The notes under the pieces: generated by a model
What the model saw: only the letters and a program-made list of their open reading frames with translations
Database searches by the model: none
What the model was told of the DNA's origin: nothing
Made by a program: the position numbers and the translations under genes
Part shown: piece after piece, positions 6,795 to 45,858 of the stretch
Layout of the letters: each line of letters opens with the position of its first letter
Numbering within the stretch: position 1 is the stretch's first letter
Assembly: GCF_001436255.1 (NCBI RefSeq)
Contig: NZ_AZEI01000014.1
Coordinates: 1-48,166, forward strand
From: Lentilactobacillus rapi DSM 19907 = JCM 15042
GTDB lineage: Bacteria; Bacillota; Bacilli; Lactobacillales; Lactobacillaceae
Direction: 5' to 3'
Length of the DNA stretch: 48,166 bases

Positions 6795-6910
6795 GTGTGC
6801 GTAACAAAGCGGTTAATAACCGGAACATAAGTCTCCCATAGTGTAAGCCCTGGGCTTTGGGCTTACACTATGGGTGCTTATGTGCAGGTTATTGCTTTGT
6901 GGAGCACTAT
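6795..6910 (+). repeat. Family B hairpin repeat, copy B1
   Basis: ACAAAGC pairs with GCTTTGT, AATAACC with GGTTATT, CATAAG with CTTATG, and the inner arm CCCATAGTGTAAGCCC is a 16-bp perfect match to its partner. The fixed loop bases GCGGTTA, GGAA and TGTGCAG are those of other family B copies. It lies in a 485-base stretch without larger genes. Confidence 0.85.
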
Positions 6911-6943
6911 TCTGCAATGTTGTCTAGAAGTTTTGACAGGTTA

Positions 6944-7881: not shown

Positions 7882-8000
7882 TAGGACAGCTGCGTAAAGC
7901 AGAAGTCTGCACGTAAGCACCTCGAAGAAAAATTCCAAAACCGGGAATTTTCCTCCGAGGAGACTTACGCTCCGACTTCTAACCGCTTTACTCCGCTCAC
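7882..8000 (-). repeat. Family B hairpin repeat, copy B2 (reverse orientation)
   Basis: Starts TAGGACAGCTGCG and ends CCGCTCAC. Paired helices: GTAAAGC/GCTTTAC, AGAAGTC/GACTTCT, GTAAG/CTTAC, and an inner CCTCG...CGAGG arm around an AATTCC tip. It belongs to the GTAAAGC helix type and is followed directly by a TCCAAGC-type copy. Confidence 0.85.
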
Positions 8001-8006
8001 TCATTT

Positions 8007-8125
8007 TAGGACAGCTCCTCCAAGCAGAGATCTGCATGTAAGCACCTCAATCAAAAATTCCAAAAACCGGAATTTCCGTTCGAGGCGACTTACACTCCGA
8101 TCTCTAACCGCTTGGATCCGCTCAC
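8007..8125 (-). repeat. Family B hairpin repeat, copy B3 (reverse orientation)
   Basis: Same frame as B2 but with the outer helix TCCAAGC/GCTTGGA, the middle helix AGAGATC/GATCTCT and GTAAG/CTTAC. The repeat start-to-start distance from B2 is 125 bases. Confidence 0.85.
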
Positions 8126-8137
8126 TAAACGTGCTCA

Positions 8138-8237
8138 ACACATCAGTTTCCTGCACATAACTGAAAATGATCACTGATCGGAAAAAGCACCGATCAATGA
8201 TCATTTACCAGTTATGCTCCGGAAACTACCGATGTGT
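8138..8237 (-). repeat. Family B-like hairpin, copy B4, next to the pepO stop
   Basis: A long palindrome with the family B layout (GTTTCC-TGCAC-ATAAC on one side, GTTATG-CTCC-GGAAAC on the other) but with an unrelated inner stem built on AATGATCA/TGATCATT. It begins 9 bases beyond the pepO stop codon and may act as its 3' end structure, although no long T tract follows. Confidence 0.7.
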
Positions 8238-8246
8238 AGTCGCACT

Positions 8247-10217
8247 CTACCAGATTTTCACCCTATCTTCCGGCTTCAAATACATACCATCACCGGGTTT
8301 AACTTCAAAGGTGGAATAGAAGTCATCCAAATTCTTAACCTGAACATTAGCTCGCAATTCTGCTGGGGCATGGACATCTATATTTAGCAGTAATTGCTTA
8401 TACTGGCTGGTTGCCTTCATTCGCCAGATCTTTGCCCAGTTGATGAAGAAGTCGTACAAGTTGTAATCTTTTTCGTTCTTGGCGGCCTCGTTGGCACAGC
8501 TCAAGCCACCAGCGTCAGCGATATTTTCCGATACCGTCAGCTTACCGTTGACCTTGCCGCCAGCGAATTCAATCCCGTCAAATTCTTTGACCATCTTGTC
8601 GGCCAACTTGGAGAAGTATTCGTGATCTTCCTTGGTCCACCAGTTATTCAAATTACCGAGTTCATCAAACAACGACCCATTGTTATCAAAAGCATGGGAA
8701 ATTTCGTGGGCAATGACCGCGCCAATCCCGCCGTAATTTTGGCTGGACGTTTGCTTCAAACTGTAGAATGGCGCCTGCAAAATAGCCGCTGGGAAAACAA
8801 TAATGTTCTTGAATGGTTCGTAATAGGCGTTCACCGTAGCAGCGCTCATTTCCCATTTGGTTCGATCGACCGGCTTGCCTAATTTGGCAAAGTTATCGGC
8901 CAGGGCGACTTCACCGATCTTAGTCATGTCATCAAATAAAGTCCCACCTTCATTTTCAGGGGTGACTTTAAATTTGTATTCCAACTGATCAATGTGATCC
9001 GGGTAGCCCACTTGAAGCTCCAGCTTTTGGAGCTTTAAAATGGCTTTTTCCCGTGTTGCTTTTCCCAACCAGGTATTTGCTTGCAGGCGATCTTCATAGA
9101 CGCTAATCATATTTTTAACCATGTGTTCAACGTCTGCTTTGGCTTTGGGGCCGAAGTATTTCTTGGCGTAGTAGTCACCGATCGTTTGGCCAAAAGTACC
9201 GGATGCCAAATAGAACGCAGATTTCTTCTGTGGGGTGGCTTCTTTTTTACCAGACAATGCGCGGCTAAAGGTGGAACCAGTCTGGCGGAATTCCTCTGAC
9301 AAATAACCGGCAGCTGAGGTGATCATGTTAACCAGCATCCAATTTTTCATATCGTTGAAGGTGTCATCGTTGGTAATTGTATCCAAAGCCTGATAGTATT
9401 TCGGCTCAGTGACGATCACTTGTTTTGGTGTTTCGTCAAACAAGCCGTCAGCGAGCTTCGTAAAGTCAAAATGCGAGCTCGATTGGGCAAATTTATCAAA
9501 AGCCATCGGGTTGTACATCTTACTGTAATCGGCTGATTCCTCCGCAGATTTTACATGAGGCGCGATGGCGGCATCAAACTTCTTGGCCGATTCAACAATT
9601 TCATCGGCTTCACTGCTACTATAATCGGCCAGGACAAAGAGCTGACTGACCATCTTGGTAAAGATTGGCATCAGTTGTTGATAGGCCGGGTTGTGGTTCT
9701 CATAATAAGTTCGATCAGGAAGAAAGAGGCCGGGGGCACCGGCAAACAGCGCGTTTACTTTGGTGTTCTTCATGTCTGGCTCAACCCCAAAGCCGATTGG
9801 CAGTGGGAAGCCGGCTTTAGTTAAGTCAACTAACTGATTGTTGAGGTCGTCAAAATCAGAGAGGCTTTCAATCTTCTCTAGATAAGGCTTAACGGGGTTA
9901 GCACCATCGGCGTCCCGCTTTTTGAAGTTCCTGGCTAATTCATACAGCTTCAAAAATTCAGCGAAGGGGCCATCATAGGACTTCTTGGTCGCAATAATTT
10001 CGTCAAGGTCACCCATTAACTGCTTATCGATGTTATCGTTCAGATCCATGAAGCCACCGGTTGAAGAATGATCGGCGGGAATTTGAGCCGTCTTTTCCCA
10101 TCTGCCGTTAACGGCCTTGTAAAGGTCATCCTTTAATAATGCAGTGTCGATTGAATCGTCGGTTGGCTGATCAGAATTGCCACCGGTTACTTCGGTTGCG
10201 CGAACAAATTTATCCAA
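8247..10217 (-). CDS. pepO: Neutral endopeptidase, M13 family
   Basis: A zinc endopeptidase of the neprilysin (M13) family that degrades oligopeptides in the cytoplasm of lactic acid bacteria. The 656-residue protein has the zinc site HEISH at 504-508 and the third ligand in ENIADAGG (E564, with D568). The NAYYEPFKNIIVFPAAILQAPFY segment before it is the usual substrate-binding strand. No signal peptide is present. The start is TTG at 10217, with GGAGG 7 bases upstream. It is monocistronic, divergent from the PPK2 gene, and the family B-like hairpin at 8138-8237 follows its stop. Confidence 0.96.
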   Translation of the reverse strand: MDKFVRATEVTGGNSDQPTDDSIDTALLKDDLYKAVNGRWEKTAQIPADHSSTGGFMDLNDNIDKQLMGDLDEIIATKKSYDGPFAEFLKLYELARNFKKRDADGANPVKPYLEKIESLSDFDDLNNQLVDLTKAGFPLPIGFGVEPDMKNTKVNALFAGAPGLFLPDRTYYENHNPAYQQLMPIFTKMVSQLFVLADYSSSEADEIVESAKKFDAAIAPHVKSAEESADYSKMYNPMAFDKFAQSSSHFDFTKLADGLFDETPKQVIVTEPKYYQALDTITNDDTFNDMKNWMLVNMITSAAGYLSEEFRQTGSTFSRALSGKKEATPQKKSAFYLASGTFGQTIGDYYAKKYFGPKAKADVEHMVKNMISVYEDRLQANTWLGKATREKAILKLQKLELQVGYPDHIDQLEYKFKVTPENEGGTLFDDMTKIGEVALADNFAKLGKPVDRTKWEMSAATVNAYYEPFKNIIVFPAAILQAPFYSLKQTSSQNYGGIGAVIAHEISHAFDNNGSLFDELGNLNNWWTKEDHEYFSKLADKMVKEFDGIEFAGGKVNGKLTVSENIADAGGLSCANEAAKNEKDYNLYDFFINWAKIWRMKATSQYKQLLLNIDVHAPAELRANVQVKNLDDFYSTFEVKPGDGMYLKPEDRVKIW

Positions 10218-16712: not shown

Positions 16713-16918
16713 AGATTGGGACCTAGGCGATTTGATCCCAGAATTTAAGTGAAAGCGGCAATGCATTCTGGTTTTGGAATGCATTGCCGCTTTCACTTAA
16801 ATGGCAGGTGTCAGCCGCTTATTGCTCAACACTCTTTTTGTTGTTTCCTAGAAGCAAATAGCTAATCTTTTAGCGTAATTAAGGGCAAGTTCCCGTTGAC
16901 ATTAAATGAGACCCAGAT
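16713..16918 (+). repeat. Family A hairpin repeat, copy A1
   Basis: The conserved left flank (GATTGGGACCTAGGCG, TTTGATCCCAGAA) leads into a perfect 25-bp stem (TTTAAGTGAAAGCGGCAATGC and on) with a TGGTTTTG tip, then the right flank with CAGCCGCTTA and a far end GAGACCC. It fills the 338-base gap between the macrodomain gene and azlC. Downstream, at about 16930-16950, ACACGTTCGTGT is a small palindrome ahead of azlC. Confidence 0.85.
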
Positions 16919-19103: not shown

Positions 19104-19285
19104 AGACTGGGACAATCGGCGTTTTGATTCCAGAATTTAAGTGAAAGCGGCAGTGCATTCTGATTTTGGAATGCGCTGCCGCTTTTGCTTAAATGGCGGG
19201 GATCAGCCGTTTGGCGCAGCTTTTATCTAGGTAGCTACGGCAATCTAAGTGAATGATCATTGATTGAAAATCAATAGATTTCCCC
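19104..19285 (+). repeat. Family A hairpin repeat, copy A2
   Basis: Same flanks as A3 (AAGACTGGGACAATCGGCG, GGGATCAGCCGTTTGGCGC). The 25-bp stem is close to that of A1, with three departures that are all G-U pairs when read on the plus strand, and one true compensatory change (A-T to G-C). It begins two bases after the GNAT stop codon. Confidence 0.85.
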
Positions 19286-28621: not shown

Positions 28622-29677
28622 TTGACTGAAACATATTTAATTGGAACCTACACCAGAAGAATCAGTAAAGGTGTTTATCAACTTGAATTGGATCCAGATA
28701 ATCAAAAACTAAAAAATTTGGAATTTGTTGGCAGCGCCATTGATCCCACCTATGTCGCTGAATCGAAGCAAAAACGCATCTATGCGATTACTAAAGTCAG
28801 AGATGACAATAACGGTAATGTCACCGGCGGTTTTTATGAATGGGATGGGACTAACGATAATTATCCACTTGCTCCAATCGCCGGGATTCACGATCAAGAA
28901 ACTTCACCAGCTTATATCGCGGTAGACGATGCCCGAAAATTAGTCTTCACAGCTAACTACCATGCTGGCATTATCAGTACGTATAAAATTGCTGACAATG
29001 GGTCAATTTCTCTGGCTGATCGAATTATGGATAAGGGAACCCTTGGCTTCAGAAAAGAACAGCAGGATGGCCCTCATCCACATTATATCGACTTGACTCC
29101 GGATAATCGGGTGGTTGTCGTTGACCTGGGAATTGACAAGGTCTTTATTTATGACGTAAGTGAGGCTGGTAAGTTGACGCCGGTCAGTGAATTACAGATG
29201 GAGGACGGTTATGGCCCCCGCCATATCACATTCGATGAAAAAAAGCAGGTGGCCTATCTGGTGGGTGAATTGAGCAGTAATATTGCCGTCTTGGATTATG
29301 ATGCCAAGAACGGTCAGCTGTCATTGAGAAATATTTTATCAACCATTCCAGATGACTGGACGGAACATAATGGTGCAGCTGCCGTTAGACAATCCAGCGA
29401 TGGCAAATTTGTGTATGTCTCCAACCGGGGCAATAATACGATCGCCGTATTCAGCTCAGATGAAAAAGGTGACCTGAAATTAATCCAAAGAATCTCAACG
29501 GAAGGCGATTTCCCACGAGATTTCAACTTGAGCGATGACGAGTCATTTGTGATCTGTTTAAATCAAAATTCTGACAATGCCACATTATATGCCAGAGATG
29601 CAGAATCTGGCAAATTAACCATGCTCCAGAAGGACTTCGCGGTACCGGAAGGGGTTAGCGTGCTAAGAAAAAAGTGA
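28622..29677 (+). CDS. Lactonase family seven-bladed beta-propeller (6-phosphogluconolactonase type)
   Basis: A 351-residue propeller of the YbhE/Pgl type, which hydrolyses 6-phosphogluconolactone in the oxidative pentose phosphate route central to heterofermenters. The repeated blade motifs include SPAYIAVDDARKLVFTANYH, GPHPHYIDLTPD, GYGPRHITFDE, and DGKFVYVSNRGNNTIAVF. The start is TTG at 28622, with GGAGG 7-8 bases upstream. The stop codon TGA is part of the first family B repeat (GTGAGCGG), and the four-unit array follows at once. Confidence 0.92.
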   Translation: MTETYLIGTYTRRISKGVYQLELDPDNQKLKNLEFVGSAIDPTYVAESKQKRIYAITKVRDDNNGNVTGGFYEWDGTNDNYPLAPIAGIHDQETSPAYIAVDDARKLVFTANYHAGIISTYKIADNGSISLADRIMDKGTLGFRKEQQDGPHPHYIDLTPDNRVVVVDLGIDKVFIYDVSEAGKLTPVSELQMEDGYGPRHITFDEKKQVAYLVGELSSNIAVLDYDAKNGQLSLRNILSTIPDDWTEHNGAAAVRQSSDGKFVYVSNRGNNTIAVFSSDEKGDLKLIQRISTEGDFPRDFNLSDDESFVICLNQNSDNATLYARDAESGKLTMLQKDFAVPEGVSVLRKK

Positions 29678-29793
29678 GCGGAGTAAAGCGGTTAGAAACT
29701 GGAACTTAAGTCGCCTCAACCAGAAATTCCTGGGTTTGGAATTTGTGGTTGAGGTGCTTAAGTGGAAGTTTCTGCTTTACGCAGCTGTCCTAA
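29674..29793 (+). repeat. Family B hairpin repeat, copy B6 (array unit 1)
   Basis: Helices GTAAAGC/GCTTTAC, AGAAACT/AGTTTCT, TTAAG/CTTAA and CCTCAACC/GGTTGAGG, with tip TTCCTGGGTTTGGAA. Its GTGAGC start contains the lactonase stop codon. It is the first of four tandem units that fill 29674-30171. Confidence 0.92.
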
Positions 29794-29800
29794 GAAAAGA

Positions 29801-29920
29801 GTGAGTGGATCCAAGCGACTAGAAAGCGGAGTGTAAGTGTCCCCGGAGAGAAATTTCCGGTTTTGAAATTTTTCTCCGAGGTCCTTACATGCAGCTTTCT
29901 GCTTGGAGGAGCTGTCCTAA
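29801..29920 (+). repeat. Family B hairpin repeat, copy B7 (array unit 2)
   Basis: Helices TCCAAGC/GCTTGGA, AGAAAGC/GCTTTCT, GTAAG/CTTAC and an inner CCCCGGAGA/TCTCCGAGG with one mismatch. It is the TCCAAGC helix type. Confidence 0.92.
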
Positions 29921-29925
29921 GAAAA

Positions 29926-30045
29926 GTGAGCGGAGTAAAGCGGTTAGAGATCGGAGTGTAAGTCTCCTTGAACGGAAATTCCGATTTTGGGAATTTTTGT
30001 TCGAGGTGCTTACATGCAGATCTCTGCTTTACGCAGCTGTCCTAA
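29926..30045 (+). repeat. Family B hairpin repeat, copy B8 (array unit 3)
   Basis: Helices GTAAAGC/GCTTTAC, AGAGATC/GATCTCT, GTAAG/CTTAC and CCTTGAAC/GTTCGAGG (one G-U). It is back to the GTAAAGC type. Confidence 0.92.
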
Positions 30046-30050
30046 GAAAA

Positions 30051-30171
30051 GTGAGCGGATCCAAGCGGTTAGGAACTGTAGCATAAGTCTCCCCAAGCAG
30101 AAATCCTTGGTTTTGAGGATTTTTGATTGGGGTGCTTATGTGGAAGTTCCTGCTTGGAGGAGCTGTCCTAA
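30051..30171 (+). repeat. Family B hairpin repeat, copy B9 (array unit 4)
   Basis: Helices TCCAAGC/GCTTGGA, AGGAACT/AGTTCCT, ATAAG/CTTAT and CCCCAAGCA/TGATTGGGG with one mismatch. It is the TCCAAGC type again, completing an alternating pattern. Start-to-start distances in the array are 127, 125 and 125 bases. A short AATTCCGGGAGA-type hairpin at about 30223-30255 lies before the next gene. Confidence 0.92.
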
Positions 30172-30275
30172 TCCACGCCGCCAAGCCCGCTAAAACCATT
30201 CCCCAATCCAACATCAACAGACCAATCAAAAAATTCCGAGAGACAACTTCTCCCGGAATTTTTGTATTTAACACA

Positions 30276-31127
30276 TTAATTAACTTTCGTTGAAATAGCT
30301 CCCAAGCCATCAATTTCACTGGTAATAACATCGCCAGATTTCAAGAATACTTGGGGATCCCGGCCAACTCCTGTTCCACTAGGGGTTCCAGTGAAGATGA
30401 GATCACCGGGATACAGCTCAATGACGCCGGAAATATAGGACACAAGTGTCTGAATATCGAAGATCATCTGGTCAATGGTCGCCTGTTGGACGATTTCACC
30501 ATTAACCTTGGTAATGACTTGCTTGGAAACAATGTCATCGGTATCGGCGATTGTGCTTATGTAAGGGCCAACTGGTGAGTAGTGCTTGAATGACTTGCTG
30601 AGATCGAATTGAGTGCCAGCACCGTCAATCGACTGTAGGTGCCGATCGGAAAGGTCTTGGCCGACCATGTAGCCGGCGATCGCATCTTCGGCGTCTTCAC
30701 GGCTAATGTTACGGCCACCGCGGCCAATGACAACCACTAATTCAGTTTCCCAGTCCACGGTATCGCTGCTTAGGTGAATGGCGTTCTGCGGGCCCGCCAA
30801 TGAACTGACAAATTTGTTAAAGACGTTGGGTGCTTTAGGCTTGGCAGTCGCCATTTCTTTCATATGATCAAGATAATTGAAGCCGATTGCTGGAATTTGA
30901 CGGGGATGTTGAACGGGTAACTCAAACTGAGATGGATCAAGTGCTTTGGAATCATCGTTGTTAATGATTTTTTCGTCACTGACATCAATCAGAACTTTGG
31001 ATACGAATCCCTGCCAATCGTTTAAAATGTCGTCGATTGAGTTGTAGCCATCAACTGGGACTCCCCAGAATTGATTATTTTGGAGAGCCACCAATGTTGG
31101 CTTATCTTCATACATTGCTAATTTCAA
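30276..31127 (-). CDS. Fumarylacetoacetate hydrolase (FAH) family protein
   Basis: A 283-residue FAH-family hydrolase or decarboxylase. The C-terminal domain (about 80-283) has AIGFNYLDHMKEM, the metal-ligand region VDWETELVVVIGRGGRNI and VGQDLSDRHLQ, and the end motif GDLIFTGTPSGTGVGRDP. Members act on acylpyruvates or related 2-oxo acids, and the substrate cannot be told. The start is TTG at 31127 with AGGAGGGG 5 bases upstream; the open frame further upstream has no ribosome site. It follows the helicase gene on the same strand with a gap of about 100 bases. Confidence 0.9.
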   Translation of the reverse strand: MKLAMYEDKPTLVALQNNQFWGVPVDGYNSIDDILNDWQGFVSKVLIDVSDEKIINNDDSKALDPSQFELPVQHPRQIPAIGFNYLDHMKEMATAKPKAPNVFNKFVSSLAGPQNAIHLSSDTVDWETELVVVIGRGGRNISREDAEDAIAGYMVGQDLSDRHLQSIDGAGTQFDLSKSFKHYSPVGPYISTIADTDDIVSKQVITKVNGEIVQQATIDQMIFDIQTLVSYISGVIELYPGDLIFTGTPSGTGVGRDPQVFLKSGDVITSEIDGLGAISTKVN

Positions 31128-31228
31128 TATAACCCCTCCTGGCATAGTCCAATTACAAATAGCGATATTAGTATACACCCAATTGTGAATGGGAACCAGA
31201 GTGAGTGTGTCCAGAAAGCGACTCATTC

Positions 31229-33589
31229 TCAAACATTGCCATTCTTCCAAAATTGTCCCAATAAATGATTCAGCTGACGGTCATTATTGGAAACTTGAAT
31301 ATTTTGCCAGTTCTGAGGAAAAATTTGGCGATAACGGGTTTGGTTAAATCGCCGATCCATCAACACGATCACGCCTTTGTCGTCGTCAGTGCGAATGACC
31401 CGGCCAGCGGCTTGGCTGACGTTGTTAAATCCCGGAAGTTGGTAGGCAAATGAAAATCCCTGACCGTTCAGTTGATCAAAATAATCCCTAATCAAGTCGG
31501 ATTCTTCATTGATGCCAGGTAAACCCACGCTCACGATACCGACACCAATTAACGCGTCGTATTTCAAGTCGATTCCTTCAGAAAAAATCCCACCAAGAAG
31601 GGCAAACCCGACTTTGGTTTGACCATCGGGAGTGCGAAATTCATCCAGAAATTCTTGTCGGGCGGCGTTATCCATATCAGGGCGTTGATTGACAACGGTC
31701 ACGTCCGGATAGCGCTCCACAAAGCGGTTGAGGACTAAGTTCATATAAGTGTTGGAAGGAAAAAAGACCATGTAATGGCCAGTTTTTGCCGAAATCATGG
31801 TAAAAATAGTCTCACAAATTGGCTCGATACTATTTTGCCGGTTGGCGTAGAGGGTGTTGATGTTATTGGCAATAATGACCTGTGAATTTTTTTGTGGAAA
31901 TGAGGAATTGGAAATCATACACAAACTCTCTGCTTCATTTCCCAGAACTTGTTGATAATAGTTAATTGGGCTGAGAGTTGCTGAAAAGAGAATCGCTGCC
32001 CGCCCTAAGTCCAAGCTTTCCTTGAGGTGCTCGCTGGGATCCAGGCAAAACTGACGGAAAATGATGCGGTCACCGTTGACGATTATTCTGGTACGGTACG
32101 TTTCGTCATAAAATTGCACCATCAAATAATAACTGCGGCAGGCAAAGTAATAATCCACCACCGCATCAACCGTGTCACTCGGCGGTTGAGTGGCTAACCA
32201 TTGATGAGTAATTTCAATCAAATCACCGAGAGTACTGTTGAAATTCGTTAGTGGTTCAAGCTGGGCAAGCTGGTGATCAACGGTTGCTGCAGCATCCTTG
32301 CTGTAACGTTTGAATGAGCGCTTCAGTGATTTGAGCTTGCTAATTAATTTGGCGTTCGCAGCTTTTTTATGTGATAACCGCTTGATTAAGGGGTCAATCG
32401 GGGTTGACTCCAAGGTGGCTGAGTACATTTCTCTTGATCGTTGGACCAGGTTATGGACTTCATCGATCAGAAAACAGTTGTCTTTATCCGGAACCGAAAA
32501 GAATCGCTGTAAGTGGACCTGGGGATCGAACAGGTAGTTATAATCGCAGATGATCACATCGCAAAATAAGCTGACATCCAGTGAATATTCAAACGGGTCA
32601 ACCTTGTGTTTTTCCGCATATTTTTGAATCGTTTCTTTGGTGATTTGATTCTCGTTTTGGATGAGGTCTTTAATGGCGGGGCGGACTCGATCATAGTAGC
32701 CCACCATGTAAGGATTTTCTTCGGGGACAACGTCCTTTTCTGCCGGGAAGGTGATCTTGTCTTTGGCCGTGAGGGTGATGCTTTTGAGGGTTAGTCCTTT
32801 TTTACTCATGATTGAAATGGTATTTTCTGCAACGTGGCGCGTGCTTTGCTTGGCGGTGAAATAGAAGACCCGCCTAATCAATTCCTCACCCATTGATTTA
32901 ATGGCTGGAAAGAGGGTTGAAATGGTCTTACCCGTTCCAGTCGGTGCTTCAACAAATAAGTGCTTTTCCAGCATGATCGCCTTATAGACATTGGTTGCGA
33001 GTTGATGTTGGCCGGGACGGTAGTTGGCAAATGGGAATTTGAGTTGCTTAGCTGAGGAAATTCGGCGCTCGTCAAGTTCACGGCGCAGCTTGAGCCACTC
33101 CTTGTATTCGGTGATGAGGTCTGCAAAAAATTGATTGGCCTCATCTTTGGTGATTGTTTGTTGCTTGGTGGTGATGATTTCATCCGGGGTTTGCACGTAC
33201 GTCAATTGCATGGTGAGCGACGCCAGATCTTGATCTTGAAGGACGATATAGGCGTACACTTTCACTTGTCCCCAATAAAGATCGAGGGTGGCCTGCGGGA
33301 TCGCTGTGTATTCCAGATCGGACGTTTTGATTTCTTCAATCAAGATCTGGTCGTCCTGGGTATCGATCCCATCCGCTCGGCCGTTGATGACATACTCATC
33401 GTCTTGATAATCAAATGAAGTTTTCAAGGCGACTTCTGGGGTGTAGGTGCTTGGTCGACTACGCTGAATTTTTCGGTGAATCCGACTGCCTTCCTGAGGG
33501 GTGTTTTCACTGCTGATGACAGGGCTCAGGTCGCCGGTTCGCAGTAAAAATTCAACCAGCTCGCGAATGCCAATTTGATGAACAGTCAT
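31229..33589 (-). CDS. DinG/XPD-like helicase fused to a PD-(D/E)XK nuclease, lacking the Fe-S cysteines
   Basis: A 786-residue superfamily 2 helicase. Residues about 1-170 are a Cas4/RecB-like PD-(D/E)XK domain (GRADGI at 70-75, IEEIKTSD at 84-91). Walker A is EAPTGTGKT (214-222), the DEAH-like box is DEVH (376-379), and the helicase C-terminal domain runs to AAGRVIRTDDDKG. In relatives with the segment LTAKDKICF...NPEYCEFANGYYDR and KHKVCPFEFSLD, four Cys hold a 4Fe-4S cluster. Here they are T280, V287, N292 and D331, so no cluster can form. The ATG has AGGAG at a 7-base spacing. A repair role is inferred. Confidence 0.9.
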   Translation of the reverse strand: MTVHQIGIRELVEFLLRTGDLSPVISSENTPQEGSRIHRKIQRSRPSTYTPEVALKTSFDYQDDEYVINGRADGIDTQDDQILIEEIKTSDLEYTAIPQATLDLYWGQVKVYAYIVLQDQDLASLTMQLTYVQTPDEIITTKQQTITKDEANQFFADLITEYKEWLKLRRELDERRISSAKQLKFPFANYRPGQHQLATNVYKAIMLEKHLFVEAPTGTGKTISTLFPAIKSMGEELIRRVFYFTAKQSTRHVAENTISIMSKKGLTLKSITLTAKDKITFPAEKDVVPEENPYMVGYYDRVRPAIKDLIQNENQITKETIQKYAEKHKVDPFEYSLDVSLFCDVIICDYNYLFDPQVHLQRFFSVPDKDNCFLIDEVHNLVQRSREMYSATLESTPIDPLIKRLSHKKAANAKLISKLKSLKRSFKRYSKDAAATVDHQLAQLEPLTNFNSTLGDLIEITHQWLATQPPSDTVDAVVDYYFACRSYYLMVQFYDETYRTRIIVNGDRIIFRQFCLDPSEHLKESLDLGRAAILFSATLSPINYYQQVLGNEAESLCMISNSSFPQKNSQVIIANNINTLYANRQNSIEPICETIFTMISAKTGHYMVFFPSNTYMNLVLNRFVERYPDVTVVNQRPDMDNAARQEFLDEFRTPDGQTKVGFALLGGIFSEGIDLKYDALIGVGIVSVGLPGINEESDLIRDYFDQLNGQGFSFAYQLPGFNNVSQAAGRVIRTDDDKGVIVLMDRRFNQTRYRQIFPQNWQNIQVSNNDRQLNHLLGQFWKNGNV

Positions 33590-34541: not shown

Positions 34542-34727
34542 GAGACTGAGACAATAGGCGTTTTGATCCCAGAATTTAACGAAAAGAACCAATTATTCCT
34601 GATTTTGGAATAGTTGGTTCTTTTCGTTAAATTCTGGGATCAGCCGTTTGGCGCAGCTTTTATCCAAGTGGCTACAGTGATCCAAACGAATAATGACTGA
34701 TTGGAAATTAATATATGTCTCAACCTC
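34542..34727 (+). repeat. Family A hairpin repeat, copy A3 (most complete)
   Basis: A full unit with near-perfect 12-base terminal inverted repeats (GAGACTGAGACA and TGTCTCAACCTC; 10 of 12 match). It holds the left flank GGCGTTTTGATCCCAGAA, a 25-bp stem TTTAACGAAAAGAACC..., tip TGATTTT, and the right flank GGGATCAGCCGTTTGGCGC. The single stem departure is a G-U pair on the plus strand. The stem sequence is quite different from A1/A2 while the flanks are the same. Confidence 0.9.
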
Positions 34728-37256: not shown

Positions 37257-37376
37257 GTGAGTGTAACAAAGCGGTTAATAACCGGAGCAGAAGTCGGCTC
37301 AACCGTGAGTTCCTGGCTTTGGAACTGACGGTTGAGTTGCTTCTGTGTAGGTTGTTGCTTTGTGGAACTGTCCTAA
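37257..37376 (+). repeat. Family B hairpin repeat, copy B12
   Basis: Helices ACAAAGC/GCTTTGT, AATAACC/GGTTGTT and GCTCAACCGT/ACGGTTGAGT, with tip GTTCCTGGCTTTGGAAC. It lies between the lysC promoter and copy B13. Confidence 0.88.
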
Positions 37377-37381
37377 AGTAA

Positions 37382-37502
37382 GTGAGTGTAGCAAAGCGGT
37401 TAGAAGTTGGTACATAAGCGGCCTCGTTCAAGAATCCACGGGCTTGGGATTTTTGAACGAGGCCGCTTATGTGCAGACTTCTGCTCTGCGGAACGATCTT
37501 AA
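37382..37502 (+). repeat. Family B hairpin repeat, copy B13
   Basis: Helices GCAAAGC/GCTCTGC (one mismatch), AGAAGT/ACTTCT, CATAAGCGGCCTCGTTCAA with a fully matching partner TTGAACGAGGCCGCTTATG, and tip ATCCACGGGCTTGGGAT. It is the most nearly perfect long inner stem of the family. Confidence 0.88.
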
Positions 37503-37610: not shown

Positions 37611-37624
37611 TATGTCAATTAAAT

Positions 37625-37793
37625 CATTAGAGGTTGCGACCAACATCAGTAACCAGTGGAGTTCCTACTTGGACTTTGAAGCTGGCAAAAGGGGCGGTTG
37701 CCGAAGCACCAAGGGAGGTAGCCTTTGGCGCGCTGGGACTTAGCTTAAGAGGCTTTGGACTGTCGCCATGGTACGCCGTGGCGGGGCGCTAAC
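37625..37793 (+). promoter_or_regulatory. Lysine riboswitch (L box) aptamer
   Basis: The conserved L-box elements appear in order: AGAGGTTGCGACC (37629-37641), CAGTAACC (37648-37655), AAAAGGGGCGGTTGCCGAAGC (the GGGG...GCCGAAG core, 37688-37708), GCTGGGACT (37732-37740) and GGACTGTC (37757-37764), closed by TTAG/CTAA at the ends. With the terminator at 37835-37876 it would stop transcription toward lysA when lysine is plentiful. Confidence 0.93.
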
Positions 37794-37834
37794 GACAATT
37801 GATAAAGAATATTATTGCGACTATAAAATTCTGA

Positions 37835-37879: not shown

Positions 37880-38003
37880 GAGAGTGTGAAACCAAGCGGT
37901 TAGGAATCGCAGCATAAGACGCCTTTAGGAGAAATTCCTGGGCTTGGAATTTTTCCTAAAGGTGCTTATGCGGAGATTCCTGCTTGGTGGAACACATTTC
38001 ACC
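37880..38003 (+). repeat. Family B hairpin repeat, copy B14, inside the lysA leader
   Basis: Helices ACCAAGC/GCTTGGT, AGGAATC/GATTCCT, GCATAAG/CTTATGC and GCCTTTAGGA/TCCTAAAGGT, with tip ATTCCTGGGCTTGGAAT. It starts 4 bases after the riboswitch terminator, so any anti-terminated lysA transcript must carry this fold. Confidence 0.88.
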
Positions 38004-38218: not shown

Positions 38219-39526
38219 ATGAGTAATCAGCTCGATCAGTTATCAGTCAATCAATCAGGCCATCTAGAAATCGGCGGTGTCGACAGCCTTGATTTGGTCA
38301 AACAATATAAAACGCCACTGGTTGTCTATGATGTTAAGGCAATTAGAGATCAGATTCATCATTTCCAAAAGGTCTTTAATGATAACGGAGTTGATTATGC
38401 CGTCAGTTATGCCAGCAAAGCTTTTGCCTGCATCGCTATGTTTCAACTGGTAAATCAAGAAAATGCGCACATCGATGTTGTTTCTGGTGGTGAGTTGTAC
38501 ACCGCAATTAAAGCAGGCTTTCCAATGGATCATGTCAGTTTTCACGGCAATGACAAATCAGTTGATGAGTTGGAAATGGCTGTTGATCACCAAATTGGGG
38601 TCATCATCTTGGATAACTTCCATGAAATTGACTTATTGAAGCAGATTCTAGAGGAAAAAGACGCCAGCATCAATGTGATGTTACGGGTGACGCCCGGAAT
38701 TTCCGCTCATACCCATGAATATGATCAAACCGGCCAGGTAGATAGTAAATTTGGTTTTGACCTTCAAAGTGGCCAGGCCAGAAAAGCATTGGACTTAGTG
38801 CTGGCAGACAAACGGATGAACATGCTTGGCATTCATTGCCACATTGGTTCCCAGATCTTTGAAGTCAAGGGCTTTGAAATGGCCGCCACTAAATTGATCG
38901 ATACGTTAGGTCAATGGCATCAAGAAGTTGGGTACGAAGCCAAAGTGGTCAACGTCGGCGGTGGCTTTGGGATTCGCTACACTGAAGAAGACGATCCAAT
39001 TGCCCCTGAGATGTTCGTGGACGCGATTGTCAAGGCAATCAAGAAACGAGTTGGTGAACTATCCTTACCAATGCCAGCCGTTTGGATCGAACCCGGTCGT
39101 TCAATTGCCGGCCCGGCAGGCTATAATCTGTACACAGTTGGCAGCCGCAAAGACGTTCCCGGGATTCGTTCTTATGTGACGGTAGATGGTGGTATGGGCG
39201 ACAACATTCGTCCCGCCCTATACCAAGCCAAGTATGAAGCAGTCCTTGCCAACAATCCCAAGGCACCAATGAAAGAAACGGTTCGGGTTGCCGGCAAGTA
39301 TTGCGAATCAGGCGACATCTTGATCCAAAAGCAGGCTTTACCGGCAACTAAGCCGGGAGACGTGCTGGCGATGCTGGCAACTGGGGCTTACGGCTACGCA
39401 ATGGCATCAAACTATAATCGTAATCCAAGGCCGGCTGTGGTATTTGTCGAAAATGGCAAATCCCAGTTAGCAATTAAACGAGAAACATTTGCAGATTTAG
39501 TATCACTCGATCAACCATTACAATAG
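38219..39526 (+). CDS. lysA: Diaminopimelate decarboxylase
   Basis: Last step of lysine synthesis: decarboxylation of meso-diaminopimelate by PLP. The 435-residue fold-type III enzyme has the PLP lysine K67 in YASKAFACIAM, the GIHCHIGSQI strand, the Gly-rich NVGGGFGIRY phosphate loop and the dimer-interface Cys in YCESGDIL. CGGAGG is 8 bases before the ATG. It is the first gene of the seven-gene operon behind the lysine riboswitch. Confidence 0.97.
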   Translation: MSNQLDQLSVNQSGHLEIGGVDSLDLVKQYKTPLVVYDVKAIRDQIHHFQKVFNDNGVDYAVSYASKAFACIAMFQLVNQENAHIDVVSGGELYTAIKAGFPMDHVSFHGNDKSVDELEMAVDHQIGVIILDNFHEIDLLKQILEEKDASINVMLRVTPGISAHTHEYDQTGQVDSKFGFDLQSGQARKALDLVLADKRMNMLGIHCHIGSQIFEVKGFEMAATKLIDTLGQWHQEVGYEAKVVNVGGGFGIRYTEEDDPIAPEMFVDAIVKAIKKRVGELSLPMPAVWIEPGRSIAGPAGYNLYTVGSRKDVPGIRSYVTVDGGMGDNIRPALYQAKYEAVLANNPKAPMKETVRVAGKYCESGDILIQKQALPATKPGDVLAMLATGAYGYAMASNYNRNPRPAVVFVENGKSQLAIKRETFADLVSLDQPLQ

Positions 39527-43213: not shown

Positions 43214-44401
43214 ATGCCACAGTTAGATAGCAAAATTTCAGGGATTGTTAACAAGAACGTTGCGTCAGTTGCCCCTTCAGGAATTCGAGAATTTGATCAA
43301 GAGATTTCATCAGTTCCTGGAATCGTGAAATTGACGATTGGTGAACCGGACTTCGACGTGCCGGAACATGCCAAACAAGCCGCGATTGAAAGTATCAAGG
43401 AGAACAAATCACATTATTCAGCCCAAAAGGGAATTATTGAATTGCGCGAAGGTATCAGCAATTATCTTCAAAAACGGACTGGCGTTTATTATGATCCTAA
43501 ATCAGAAGTAATCGTCACGGTTGGGGCAACAGAGGCAATTTACTCAGCCCTAACCACGATTTTGAACCCTGGCGATAAGGTGATTGTGCCAACCCCAGCA
43601 TTTGCATTGTATTTCCCAATTATCAAAGTCGCTGGCGCAGAATTGATTACAATTGATACTTCTGACGATGGTTTTGTCCTAACCCCTGAGAAACTGCAGG
43701 CAGCTCTCGATGAGAATGGCGATCAGGTTAAAGCAATTATTTTAAATTATCCAACTAACCCAACCGGCGTTGAATATTCTGAAGCCCAATTAAAGGCGTT
43801 GGCAGACATTATTTCGCAGCACAAGATGTATGTTTTGGCCGATGAAATCTATTGTGAACTAACTTATGGGGTTGAGCATCACTCAATTGCCAGCATGATT
43901 CCTGAGCAAACGATTTTGATCAACGGCTTGTCCAAGTCCCATGCGATGACCGGATATCGGATCGGTTATTTAGCCGCTCCCAAGGACTTTATTACCAATG
44001 CTTCCAAGATGCATGCATTTGTTGTCACCGCCCCTTCCAATCCCGCTCAATATGCGGCTGCGGAAGCTTTGAAAAATGGCTTGGATGATCCAATTCCAAT
44101 GCGGGCTACTTATGAGAAGCGCCGGGACTACATCGCGGATCGATTGAAGCAAATGGGGATGCAAATTGCCTTTCCTCAAGGCGCATTTTACATCTTTGCC
44201 AAAATTCCTGGTACAATAAACGAAACCTCAGTGGAATTTGCGACAAAATTAGCAAAGGAAGCTAAGGTTGGCGTGACTCCAGGTTCAGCATTTGGCCCCG
44301 GAGGTGAAGGTTGGATTCGGATGTCATATGCAGCCGCTGATGAAGATATCAAGTTGGCAATGGATCGCATGAATCAATATTTGTTAGAATTAGCTGAATA
44401 G
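43214..44401 (+). CDS. patA: Aminotransferase, probably N-acetyl-LL-diaminopimelate aminotransferase
   Basis: A 395-residue fold-type I PLP enzyme with K241 in NGLSKSHAMTGYRIGY, D210 in LADEIYCEL and the NYPTNPTGVEYS motif. Its place between dapB and asd, and the need for an N-acetyl-amino-ketopimelate aminotransferase in the acetylase branch, support that role; related enzymes also act on aromatic amino acids. GGGAGG is 6 bases before the ATG. The stop TAG is shared with the start of family B repeat B10 (TAGGACAGC). Confidence 0.9.
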   Translation: MPQLDSKISGIVNKNVASVAPSGIREFDQEISSVPGIVKLTIGEPDFDVPEHAKQAAIESIKENKSHYSAQKGIIELREGISNYLQKRTGVYYDPKSEVIVTVGATEAIYSALTTILNPGDKVIVPTPAFALYFPIIKVAGAELITIDTSDDGFVLTPEKLQAALDENGDQVKAIILNYPTNPTGVEYSEAQLKALADIISQHKMYVLADEIYCELTYGVEHHSIASMIPEQTILINGLSKSHAMTGYRIGYLAAPKDFITNASKMHAFVVTAPSNPAQYAAAEALKNGLDDPIPMRATYEKRRDYIADRLKQMGMQIAFPQGAFYIFAKIPGTINETSVEFATKLAKEAKVGVTPGSAFGPGGEGWIRMSYAAADEDIKLAMDRMNQYLLELAE

Positions 44402-44517
44402 GACAGCTGCGCAAAGCAGAAAGTTGCGCATAAGCACCTCAAACCAAAATTCCAAGATCGGGAATTTCAGTTTGAGGAGACTTATGCTCCGCTTTCTAAC
44501 CGCTTTGCTCCGCTCAC
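44399..44517 (-). repeat. Family B hairpin repeat, copy B10 (reverse orientation)
   Basis: Helices GCAAAGC/GCTTTGC, AGAAAG/CTTTCT, CATAAG/CTTATG and CCTCAAAC/GTTTGAGG, with tip ATTCCAAGATCGGGAAT. Its TAG start is the patA stop codon. It sits inside the lysine operon. Confidence 0.92.
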
Positions 44518-44522
44518 TATAT

Positions 44523-44641
44523 TAGGACAGCTGCGCCGGGCAGAAACTTGCACATAAGCACCTTCCGCCAAAATTCCAAAAGCGGGAATTTCCGCTGAAG
44601 GAGACTTATGTTCCAGTTTCTAAGCGCCCGGCTCCGCTCAC
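44523..44641 (-). repeat. Family B hairpin repeat, copy B11 (reverse orientation)
   Basis: Helices GCCGGGC/GCCCGGC, AGAAACT/AGTTTCT, CATAAG/CTTATG and CCTTCCGC with a partner GCTGAAGG (one mismatch). The outer helix has several changes on both arms compared with B10, all pairing. It ends 7 bases before the asd ribosome site (AAGGAG). Confidence 0.92.
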
Positions 44642-44661
44642 TACAGAAAAGGAGTTTTATG

Positions 44662-45741
44662 ATGAAAGAGTTTAACGTTGCAATTTTAGGTGCTACTGGT
44701 GCTGTTGGAACTCGGATGATCCAGCAGTTGGAACAATCAACCATTCCGGTGAAGAGTGTTAAGTTACTGGCTTCATCACGTTCCGCAGGTAAGGTGCTTC
44801 AATTTAAAGGTCAAGATGTGACCGTCGAAGAGACCACCCCAGATTCATTCAATGGGATTGATTTGGTGCTGTCTTCAGCAGGTGGCTCAACCTCTAAGAA
44901 GTTCCTGCCAGAAGCTGTTAAACGTGGTGCTGTGTGCGTTGACAACACCAGTGCTTTCCGAATGGAAAAAGAAGTGCCATTGGTCATTCCTGAAGTTAAC
45001 GAAAAAGCTCTATACAATCATCGCGGGATTATCTCAAACCCTAACTGTTCAACTATTCAGATGGTGGTTTGTTTGGAACCCATCTATAAGAAATTTGGCT
45101 TGAAGCAAGTCATCGTTTCAACTTATCAAGCCGTTTCCGGTGCGGGTCAATCTGCCCTTAATGAGTTGATGGAAGAATCTCAACAAGTCTTGAACGGCGA
45201 ACCAACTGATCCAAAGATTTTGCCAACTAAGGGTGATAAAAAGCATTACCAAATGGCCTTTAACCTCTTACCTCAAATTGATGTCTTCGAACAAGATGGC
45301 TATTACACTCACGAAGAGTGGAAGATGATCCATGAAACTAAGAAGATCATGTTGGACGACATGGATGCCAAGGACATTAAGGTAACTGCAACTTGTGTCC
45401 GAGTGCCAATCCGAATTGCTCATGGCGAGACGGTTTACTTTGAAGTTGCCGACAAGAGTGCAACGACTGATCAAATTAAAGACGCTTTGGATGGTGCTGA
45501 TGGCGTTGTCTTACAAGATGACACGGCTCACCAAATTTATCCACAATCCATTAACGCTGAAGGCAAACGGGAAACGTTTGTTGGCCGGGTTCGTCCTGAT
45601 TATGAAAACGAGGGTGCCTTCAATATGTGGGTTGTTTCCGACAACTTGTTAAAAGGTGCTGCGTGGAACGCTGTTCAGATTGCTGAACGATTAGTTGCTG
45701 ATGATCTGGTAAGAGTACCGGATAATCCGTACTTGGGATAG
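44662..45741 (+). CDS. asd: Aspartate-semialdehyde dehydrogenase
   Basis: Reduces aspartyl phosphate to aspartate semialdehyde, the branch point for lysine, threonine and methionine. The 359-residue protein has [13 protein letters not shown] (7-19), the catalytic C129 in [10 protein letters not shown], and the [12 protein letters not shown] region. The ATG at 44662 lies 7 bases after AAGGAG; another ATG directly before it has only 4 bases. It is the last gene of the riboswitch operon, separated from patA by two family B repeats. Its stop TAG joins repeat B15. Confidence 0.97.
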
Positions 45742-45858
45742 TGAGCGACTAGCAACGGGTGATGCGGTGTGTAAGGTCGAAATGATTAAAATCCTGGTCT
45801 TGGATTTAAATCATTTCGACCTTACACGTTAGCATCAGTTGCGTCGGAGCTGTCCTAA
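45741..45858 (+). repeat. Family B-like hairpin repeat, copy B15, at the asd stop codon
   Basis: Keeps the family ends (GTGAGCG and GGAGCTGTCCTAA) and tip (AATCCTGGTCTTGGATT) but has new helices: GCAAC/GTTGC, TGATGC/GCATCA, and a long GTGTAAGGTCGAAATGATT arm with an almost perfect partner. It begins with the G of the asd stop TAG. Confidence 0.85.

Follow-up and report, generated by a model that had tools for sequence, protein, structure and literature searches.

A 119-nt hairpin repeat of Lactobacillaceae resembles a little-described type of miniature mobile DNA

The window analyzed here, the whole 48,166-nt stretch of Lentilactobacillus rapi DSM 19907 = JCM 15042, carries copies of a hairpin repeat that is probably a non-coding, non-autonomous mobile palindrome family of Lactobacillaceae. 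Each unit is about 119–121 nt long and would be handled as a single-stranded hairpin and mobilized in trans. Based on sequence comparison, the probability of this reading is put at about 0.58. The fold, the strand asymmetry, the sharp ends and the turnover of the units are jointly explained by a mobile palindrome handled in this way. If this is true, 21 of the 40 sampled genera of Lactobacillaceae, food and gut bacteria, harbor an unnamed mobile palindrome that docks at the edges of genes, which would be a test bed for the copying and swapping of hairpin DNA without a known transposase. Hairpins before Shine–Dalgarno sequences (SDs) or after stop codons could then differ between close relatives, and they may alter gene expression.

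The array at 29674–30170 consists of four tandem hairpin units of 119–120 nt, located between a lactonase-like gene (28622–29677, plus strand) and a fumarylacetoacetate-hydrolase-like gene (30276–31250, minus strand). All four are on the plus strand, at 29674–29792 (129.5 bits), 29801–29919 (121.1 bits), 29926–30044 (126.4 bits) and 30051–30170 (123.5 bits). The scores are from R1, a 119-position covariance model trained on 12 copies in the window, which it scores at 109–132 bits. The outer helix is GTAAAGC/GCTTTAC in the first and third units, and TCCAAGC/GCTTGGA in the second and fourth. The GTGAG end of the first unit shares bases with the TGA that terminates the lactonase-like gene (Pfam Lactonase).

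The other strong units on the plus strand are a single one at 6795–6912 (117.4 bits), a pair at 37257–37375 (123.2 bits) and 37382–37501 (109 bits), and one at 37882–38000 (120.2 bits). The last is directly 3′ of a T-run by eye; a lysine riboswitch (37620–37799, plus strand, 75.4 bits), the T-run, the unit and a PLP decarboxylase gene at 38219 (Pfam) follow one another. On the minus strand, two strong units are seen at 8007–8125 (the first, or 5′, unit; 127.4 bits) and 7882–8000 (the second of this two-unit array; 132.4 bits), and two more at 44399–44517 (129.5 bits) and 44523–44641 (125.1 bits). The unit at 44399 is common to the window and the sister species, while the one at 44523, adjoining by eye the SD of a semialdehyde dehydrogenase gene, is extra relative to the sister species (124-nt difference). 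A diverged unit at 45741–45857 (plus strand, 58.7 bits) completes with its first base the TAG stop of the gene at 44608–45741, and a weak partial copy (44.1 bits, model positions 14–103) is at 16726–16816 on the plus strand. A diverged type II unit with approximate limits of 8126–8247 (minus strand) lies at the stop of the gene at 8247–10217 (minus strand) and is absent from that site in the sister species, a difference of 122 nt; R1 gives no match to it at E ≤ 1. The sequence-only reading had listed 14 near-full copies. Twelve of them are strong, including the one placed at 37880, which is real with R1 limits of 37882–38000; the copy at 45741 is diverged, and the one at 8138 is below the reach of R1 at E ≤ 1, yet corresponds to the 122-nt unit.

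The alignment of the 12 copies bears out the layout proposed for them and refines the loops and the bulge. From the base, an AGC/GCU helix is followed by a 3×3 loop GGA/GCA (or GGA/GGA), a 7-bp helix, a GGUU bulge, another 7-bp helix, a second 3×3 loop, a long inner stem and the tip. Both sides are changed at 29 of the 42 aligned pairs (14.2 ± 2.2 in shuffles), and 97.4% of the cells are paired, compared with 80.9 ± 1.0% in shuffles and 34.7–45.4% in slid controls. A tree-aware covariation test, run with an R-scape-like custom script rather than R-scape itself and with 60 null alignments, used 130 of the 206 deduplicated units that came from 319 intact units in five genomes (G000, which is the genome of the window, G011, G094, G018 and G273). 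Thirteen of the 6670 column pairs are significant at E < 0.05, and all 13, read by hand, fall in the nested helices of the hairpin. The covariation of the arms around fixed loops, seen at first in the letters alone, is thus significant when the tree is taken into account. Part of it may stem from whole-unit exchange between loci, not from point-by-point compensation. For two units folded singly, the stated strand is 6.8 and 7.6 s.d. below shuffles and the complement 5.1 and 9.7 s.d. below; because the complements also fold well, folding energy alone cannot name the strand.

The Rfam search of the window returns the lysine riboswitch only. The hairpin unit matches no family above the gathering cut-off, in agreement with the initial failure to recognize it, and cmscan of 29600–30250 at E ≤ 5 gives three miRNA-family hits of 17–21 bits, far below their cut-offs. 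No name for this hairpin family was found in the open-access literature, as judged by titles and the beginnings of abstracts.

The own genome contains at least 150 R1 matches. In a sample of 845 kb from it (the window and 40 stretches), 251 matches are found at E ≤ 1e-6, antisense echoes included, and the best 150 of these 251 yield 147 non-overlapping units. On contig C12 (534 kb; L069–L076), eight 20-kb samples across the first 440 kb contain three R1 matches at E ≤ 1e-6, scoring 48.9, 58.2 and 84.1 bits; the remaining sampled contigs are denser. An overlap with a called ORF of at least 90 codons, possibly a spurious one, is seen for 14 of 88 clusters. R1 matches are present in 22 of 60 relatives, the own genome being counted among the 60, and in none of the 23 among them that belong to other families of the order. 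The covariance-model search suggested for Lactobacillaceae shows a widespread family, with 96 of 301 genomes matched at E ≤ 1e-8, from 21 of 40 genera. Four different unit queries match 9, 12, 60 and 15 plasmid records, and one unit query has no match among 50,697 phage records. In L. paracasei and L. rhamnosus plasmids (H155, H167–H171), similar hairpins lie beneath a lacT annotation.

The same unit is found at unrelated sites with sharp ends, as expected of a non-autonomous mobile repeat. Among 268 intact units, there are 39 non-neighbor pairs within the same genome at 95% identity or above, and their identity extends only 0–2 nt beyond the unit in 36 of these pairs for the 5′ side and in 26 for the 3′ side. 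The A-rich spacer at anti-SD sites (A 68%, versus 32% at other sites) had suggested that the leader belongs to the unit; this was rejected, as near-identical units elsewhere share no leader.

In arrays, the spacer matches the 5′ flank for at least 4 nt in 20 of 51 cases (permutation mean 5.6, maximum 13), and in the own genome alone in 12 of 26 (mean 2.9, maximum 9). No such match to the 5′ flank is found for the true 3′ tails of 25 arrays (p = 0.54). When all 67 arrays are taken, the tails do match it (p = 0.006), but this set includes tails running into another unit. Plain target-site duplication is rejected, since spacers match the 5′ flank but the true tails do not. The arrays are also polar. 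Of 175 clusters, 39 have remnants within 150 nt on the 3′ side and 11 on the 5′ side, and in 43 of 65 arrays the first unit scores higher than the last (p = 0.012). Under the mobile reading, new units would enter mostly at the gene-proximal end and old ones would decay at the far end. Downstream (3′) of type II units, runs of shortened units without much of the 5′ arm are seen, for example at L058 18456–18693 and L052 3687–3805, and a 1.95-Mb sample has 37 3′ halves without a partner, compared with 18 such 5′ halves. A parent transposon with split ends was sought in the 1.95 Mb; five pairs of half-units are no more than 6 kb apart, and none was recognized as a parent.

Comparison of the own genome with its close relative G011, the sister species (95% DNA identity at one gene), reveals turnover; a protein of the window also has a 96% identical relative in Lentilactobacillus dabitei. 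At 39 clusters anchored on both sides, the number of units is equal at 21 and unequal at 18, and the differences come in steps of about 124 nt. Eight of the 39 have no unit found in G011, and for three of these none is found by this approach in the own genome either. Of 11 orthologous sites with a single unit, six carry units only 53–82% identical between flanks that are 89–97% identical, and five carry units that are 91–99% identical. The site of the unit at 6795 is occupied in G011 by a different, apparently partly chimeric unit (75% identity, flanks 95–97% identical). At L061 19613, the two units agree at their terminal bases but have unrelated interiors. Among 25 aligned differences between the two genomes, several absences are remnants or deletions through short repeats, and a clean, never-occupied site is not seen for any type I or II unit, implying that founding insertions are old or rare. 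The site of 29674 was considered as an empty site in G011 and rejected, since by eye a type II-like remnant is present there.

Occupied and unoccupied versions of one site are found on plasmids, in the gap between the PTS IIB and IIC genes, with a difference of about 119 nt. Among six plasmids the gap is 32–33 nt in two, 150–152 nt with one unit in three, and 43 nt with an 11-nt remnant in the sixth. The exact junction is uncertain, as plasmids lacking a unit share only about 81–83% identity with an occupied one. Two occupied plasmids are identical at 331/331 and 368/369 positions of the flanks, with only 123/151 in the gap. The unit in the copY–copA gap of lactobacillus and Pediococcus plasmids (L230, L236–L239) is conserved in all five aligned, which speaks against fast turnover everywhere. 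Listeria plasmids cover the same 801-base copper-operon query at 98.8–98.9%.

The apparent exchange of units could instead reflect differential loss from ancestral multi-unit arrays. This is possible, though on the unlikely side, and it is compatible with a mobile palindrome. Unit-sized differences are common, and the chimeric look of the G011 unit at the 6795 site would fit. The PTS plasmids, with near-identical flanks and one unit each, would however require that a recently formed array lost units twice, independently. The site L061 19613, where only the ends are kept, also argues against loss, although an array whose units share their ends could yield the same pattern.

The 5′ end of the units docks at the boundaries of genes, immediately after a stop codon, immediately outside an antisense SD or, by eye, immediately after the T-run of a terminator. 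Type I units start with GTGAG, and type II units with GAGTG or GTGTG. Of the 79 type I and II clusters, 12 with a missing or overlapping neighbor were dropped, and docking of the other 67 was compared with random placement in the same gaps; the gene calls come from a simple ORF script and are wrong for some of the starts. For type I, the 5′ end is 18–26 nt from a divergent start in 13 of 39 clusters (1.05 expected) and no more than 6 nt past a stop in 9 of 39 (0.71 expected). For type II, the corresponding counts are 0 of 28 near divergent starts and 13 of 28 past a stop (0.78 expected for the latter). The four matching counts for the 3′ side are 1, 0, 0 and 1 (0.6–1.1 expected), that is, no docking. 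Considering the best-scoring loci only, 21 of 30 in G018 and G273 are within 10 nt after a co-directional stop (at least two pairs come from one array), and in G094, by eye, a T-run adjoins 9 of 30 and an anti-SD 8 of 30. Plasmid copies in a copper operon, in a PTS operon and alongside an alpha-glucosidase gene are 21–23 nt from the start codon by hand count.

No single sequence target behind the docking to stops, SDs and T-runs can be named, and a mobile palindrome by itself does not explain why all three are chosen alike. Two ideas can be put forward: such places may truly be targeted, or the 5′ spacer may be eroded from one side as far as a boundary that is under selection. Twenty genes have units on both sides. 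Judged by their first 50 residues, several are presumably metabolic, and no shared recombinase is seen among them by inspection of these residues.

A third type of unit is represented in the window by two diverged copies on the plus strand, at 34544–34661 (60.2 bits, terminator-like) and 19105–19224 (55.8 bits, 4 nt 3′ of a stop codon), and elsewhere by L050 8880, L088 9856 and L080 16228. These units begin with GACTGGGACA or similar, and TGTCCCAGCC or similar, often with T-rich sequence, is seen downstream by eye. Type III units may be terminators built on the same kind of hairpin. The T-run of an intrinsic terminator does not typically follow the type I hairpins inspected, whose 3′ tails are, by eye, mostly A-rich or mixed.

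The stems are asymmetric between strands. In an alignment fitted to the model, the 147 units have 475 G-U and 50 A-C cells. Four pairs are rich in wobbles (in 44 to 124 of the 147 units), and without them 141 G-U and 47 A-C cells are left by subtraction. Units antisense to both neighbors have 163 G-U versus 22 A-C cells (39 versus 20 without the four pairs), and those sense to both neighbors 73 versus 4 (25 versus 3). As G-U exceeds A-C in both settings, the constraint appears to act on one strand in its single-stranded form. Symmetry would be expected if the units functioned only as double-stranded DNA. The asymmetry itself could come from RNA or from single-stranded DNA.

The units might accordingly be a structured RNA acting in the transcripts of neighboring genes, as a 3′ UTR stabilizer, an attenuator or a processed small RNA. 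The strong covariation, the wobbles common on one strand, the sense docking at stop codons and (by eye) T-runs, and the unit between the lysine riboswitch and the decarboxylase gene are in line with this. Outside the common wobbles, moreover, G-U to A-C is 25 to 3 and 31 to 7 in sense settings versus 39 to 20 and 56 to 26 in antisense ones, and this larger excess leans towards some RNA constraint. Nevertheless, 42 of 88 clusters are oriented against their 5′ neighbor gene, and in 22 of the 88 the orientation is antisense to the genes on either side, where the asymmetry is still there; no Rfam family is matched. A cis-acting role in mRNA does not account for the mixed orientation to genes, and a structured RNA as the whole explanation is improbable. 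Gene context favors DNA; the stronger G-U excess in sense settings does not. The sequence-only reading had offered both a conserved RNA fold and a hairpin DNA handled as a single strand. The latter fits better, since gene orientation is mixed and docking, dispersal and turnover are traits of mobile elements.

Palindromic DNA is prone to hairpin-templated correction. A selfish or neutral palindrome could keep its arms alike by such repair (template switching) and not by selection on the fold, and short-repeat deletions are indeed seen near the base of the hairpin. Templated repair predicts matched arms, but not the fixed loops, the GGUU bulge, the positions of wobbles or the excess of G-U over A-C, and is quite improbable as the main cause. 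It is very improbable that the units are DNA landmarks for a chromosome-organizing protein or gyrase (BIME-like) spread through ordinary recombination: many copies, mostly between called genes, and their scarcity across part of contig C12 would suit such a role, but it gives no reason for one-end docking or unit turnover, and units are present on plasmids.

Returning to the mobile palindrome, each unit is a long hairpin with two purine-rich 3×3 internal loops and the GGUU bulge. An enzyme supplied in trans would recognize the single-stranded hairpin, with the loops and the bulge as possible handles, and would move or exchange hairpin units. No mobilizing gene was found. More tentatively, the units may represent a distinct class of mobile hairpin cassette: a 119-nt unit recognized as a single strand, with one end docked at boundaries of transcription or translation, building polar arrays by gene-proximal insertion that copies the adjoining 4–8 nt, and, at fixed sites, swapped as complete units by an enzyme that is not yet described and does not depend on Y1.

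Among known repeats, REP/BIME elements with RAYT (TnpA_REP) transposases are alike in being short palindromes between genes, present in many copies that stand singly or in groups, and REPs are hypothesized to be miniature transposons that tyrosine transposases move in trans, according to PMC3733652. REPs are 20–40 nt long and, in the same source, have a foot tag GTAG or CGTC; the units here match over their full length of 119 nt, and the tag is not seen in the unit flanks inspected. In the rows inspected, units begin with A-GTGAG, GAGTG or GTGTG with varied flanks. The Y1 transposase (PF01797) is matched in 7 of 24 genomes of the genus. Eight of 13 Lentilactobacillus genomes with at least 30 R1 matches have no match to it, so that a tyrosine (Y1) nuclease, the usual enzyme for such single-strand handling, seems not to be required. 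G011 has only pieces of 33–39 aa at contig starts. The own genome has one Y1 transposase gene, L009 (G000:C22 near 109952), and the divergent gene beside it looks TnpB-like by eye, which we take to be the IS605-type layout. An IS605-type Y1 transposase as the mobilizer was rejected, as its presence is uneven across copy-bearing genomes.

ERIC/IRU, RUP, Correia/NEMIS and YPAL share with the units a similar length (roughly 100–170 bp), the lack of transposase genes and, in several cases, folding into long stem-loops, and their parent is usually unknown, according to PMC2229807. Compared by description, they differ in their feature of a TA target and termini, which is not found here. The dinucleotide before the first G of 88 first units is AA in 45, TA in 25, GA in 11, CA in 6 and GC in 1, and the AA:TA ratio is like the background; a TA target is thus rejected, while 111 of 147 units end in TA. 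The units here also form arrays, with one end docked at stops, anti-SDs and T-runs, and we know of no such docking for ERIC or RUP. BOX elements of Streptococcus are modular intergenic hairpins with variable numbers of units; compared by description only, they differ in that every unit here is a complete hairpin. Integron attC sites are imperfect hairpins that adjoin gene ends and are recognized folded as a single strand, whereas the hairpin described here docks at anti-SD sites as well and forms arrays without cassettes.
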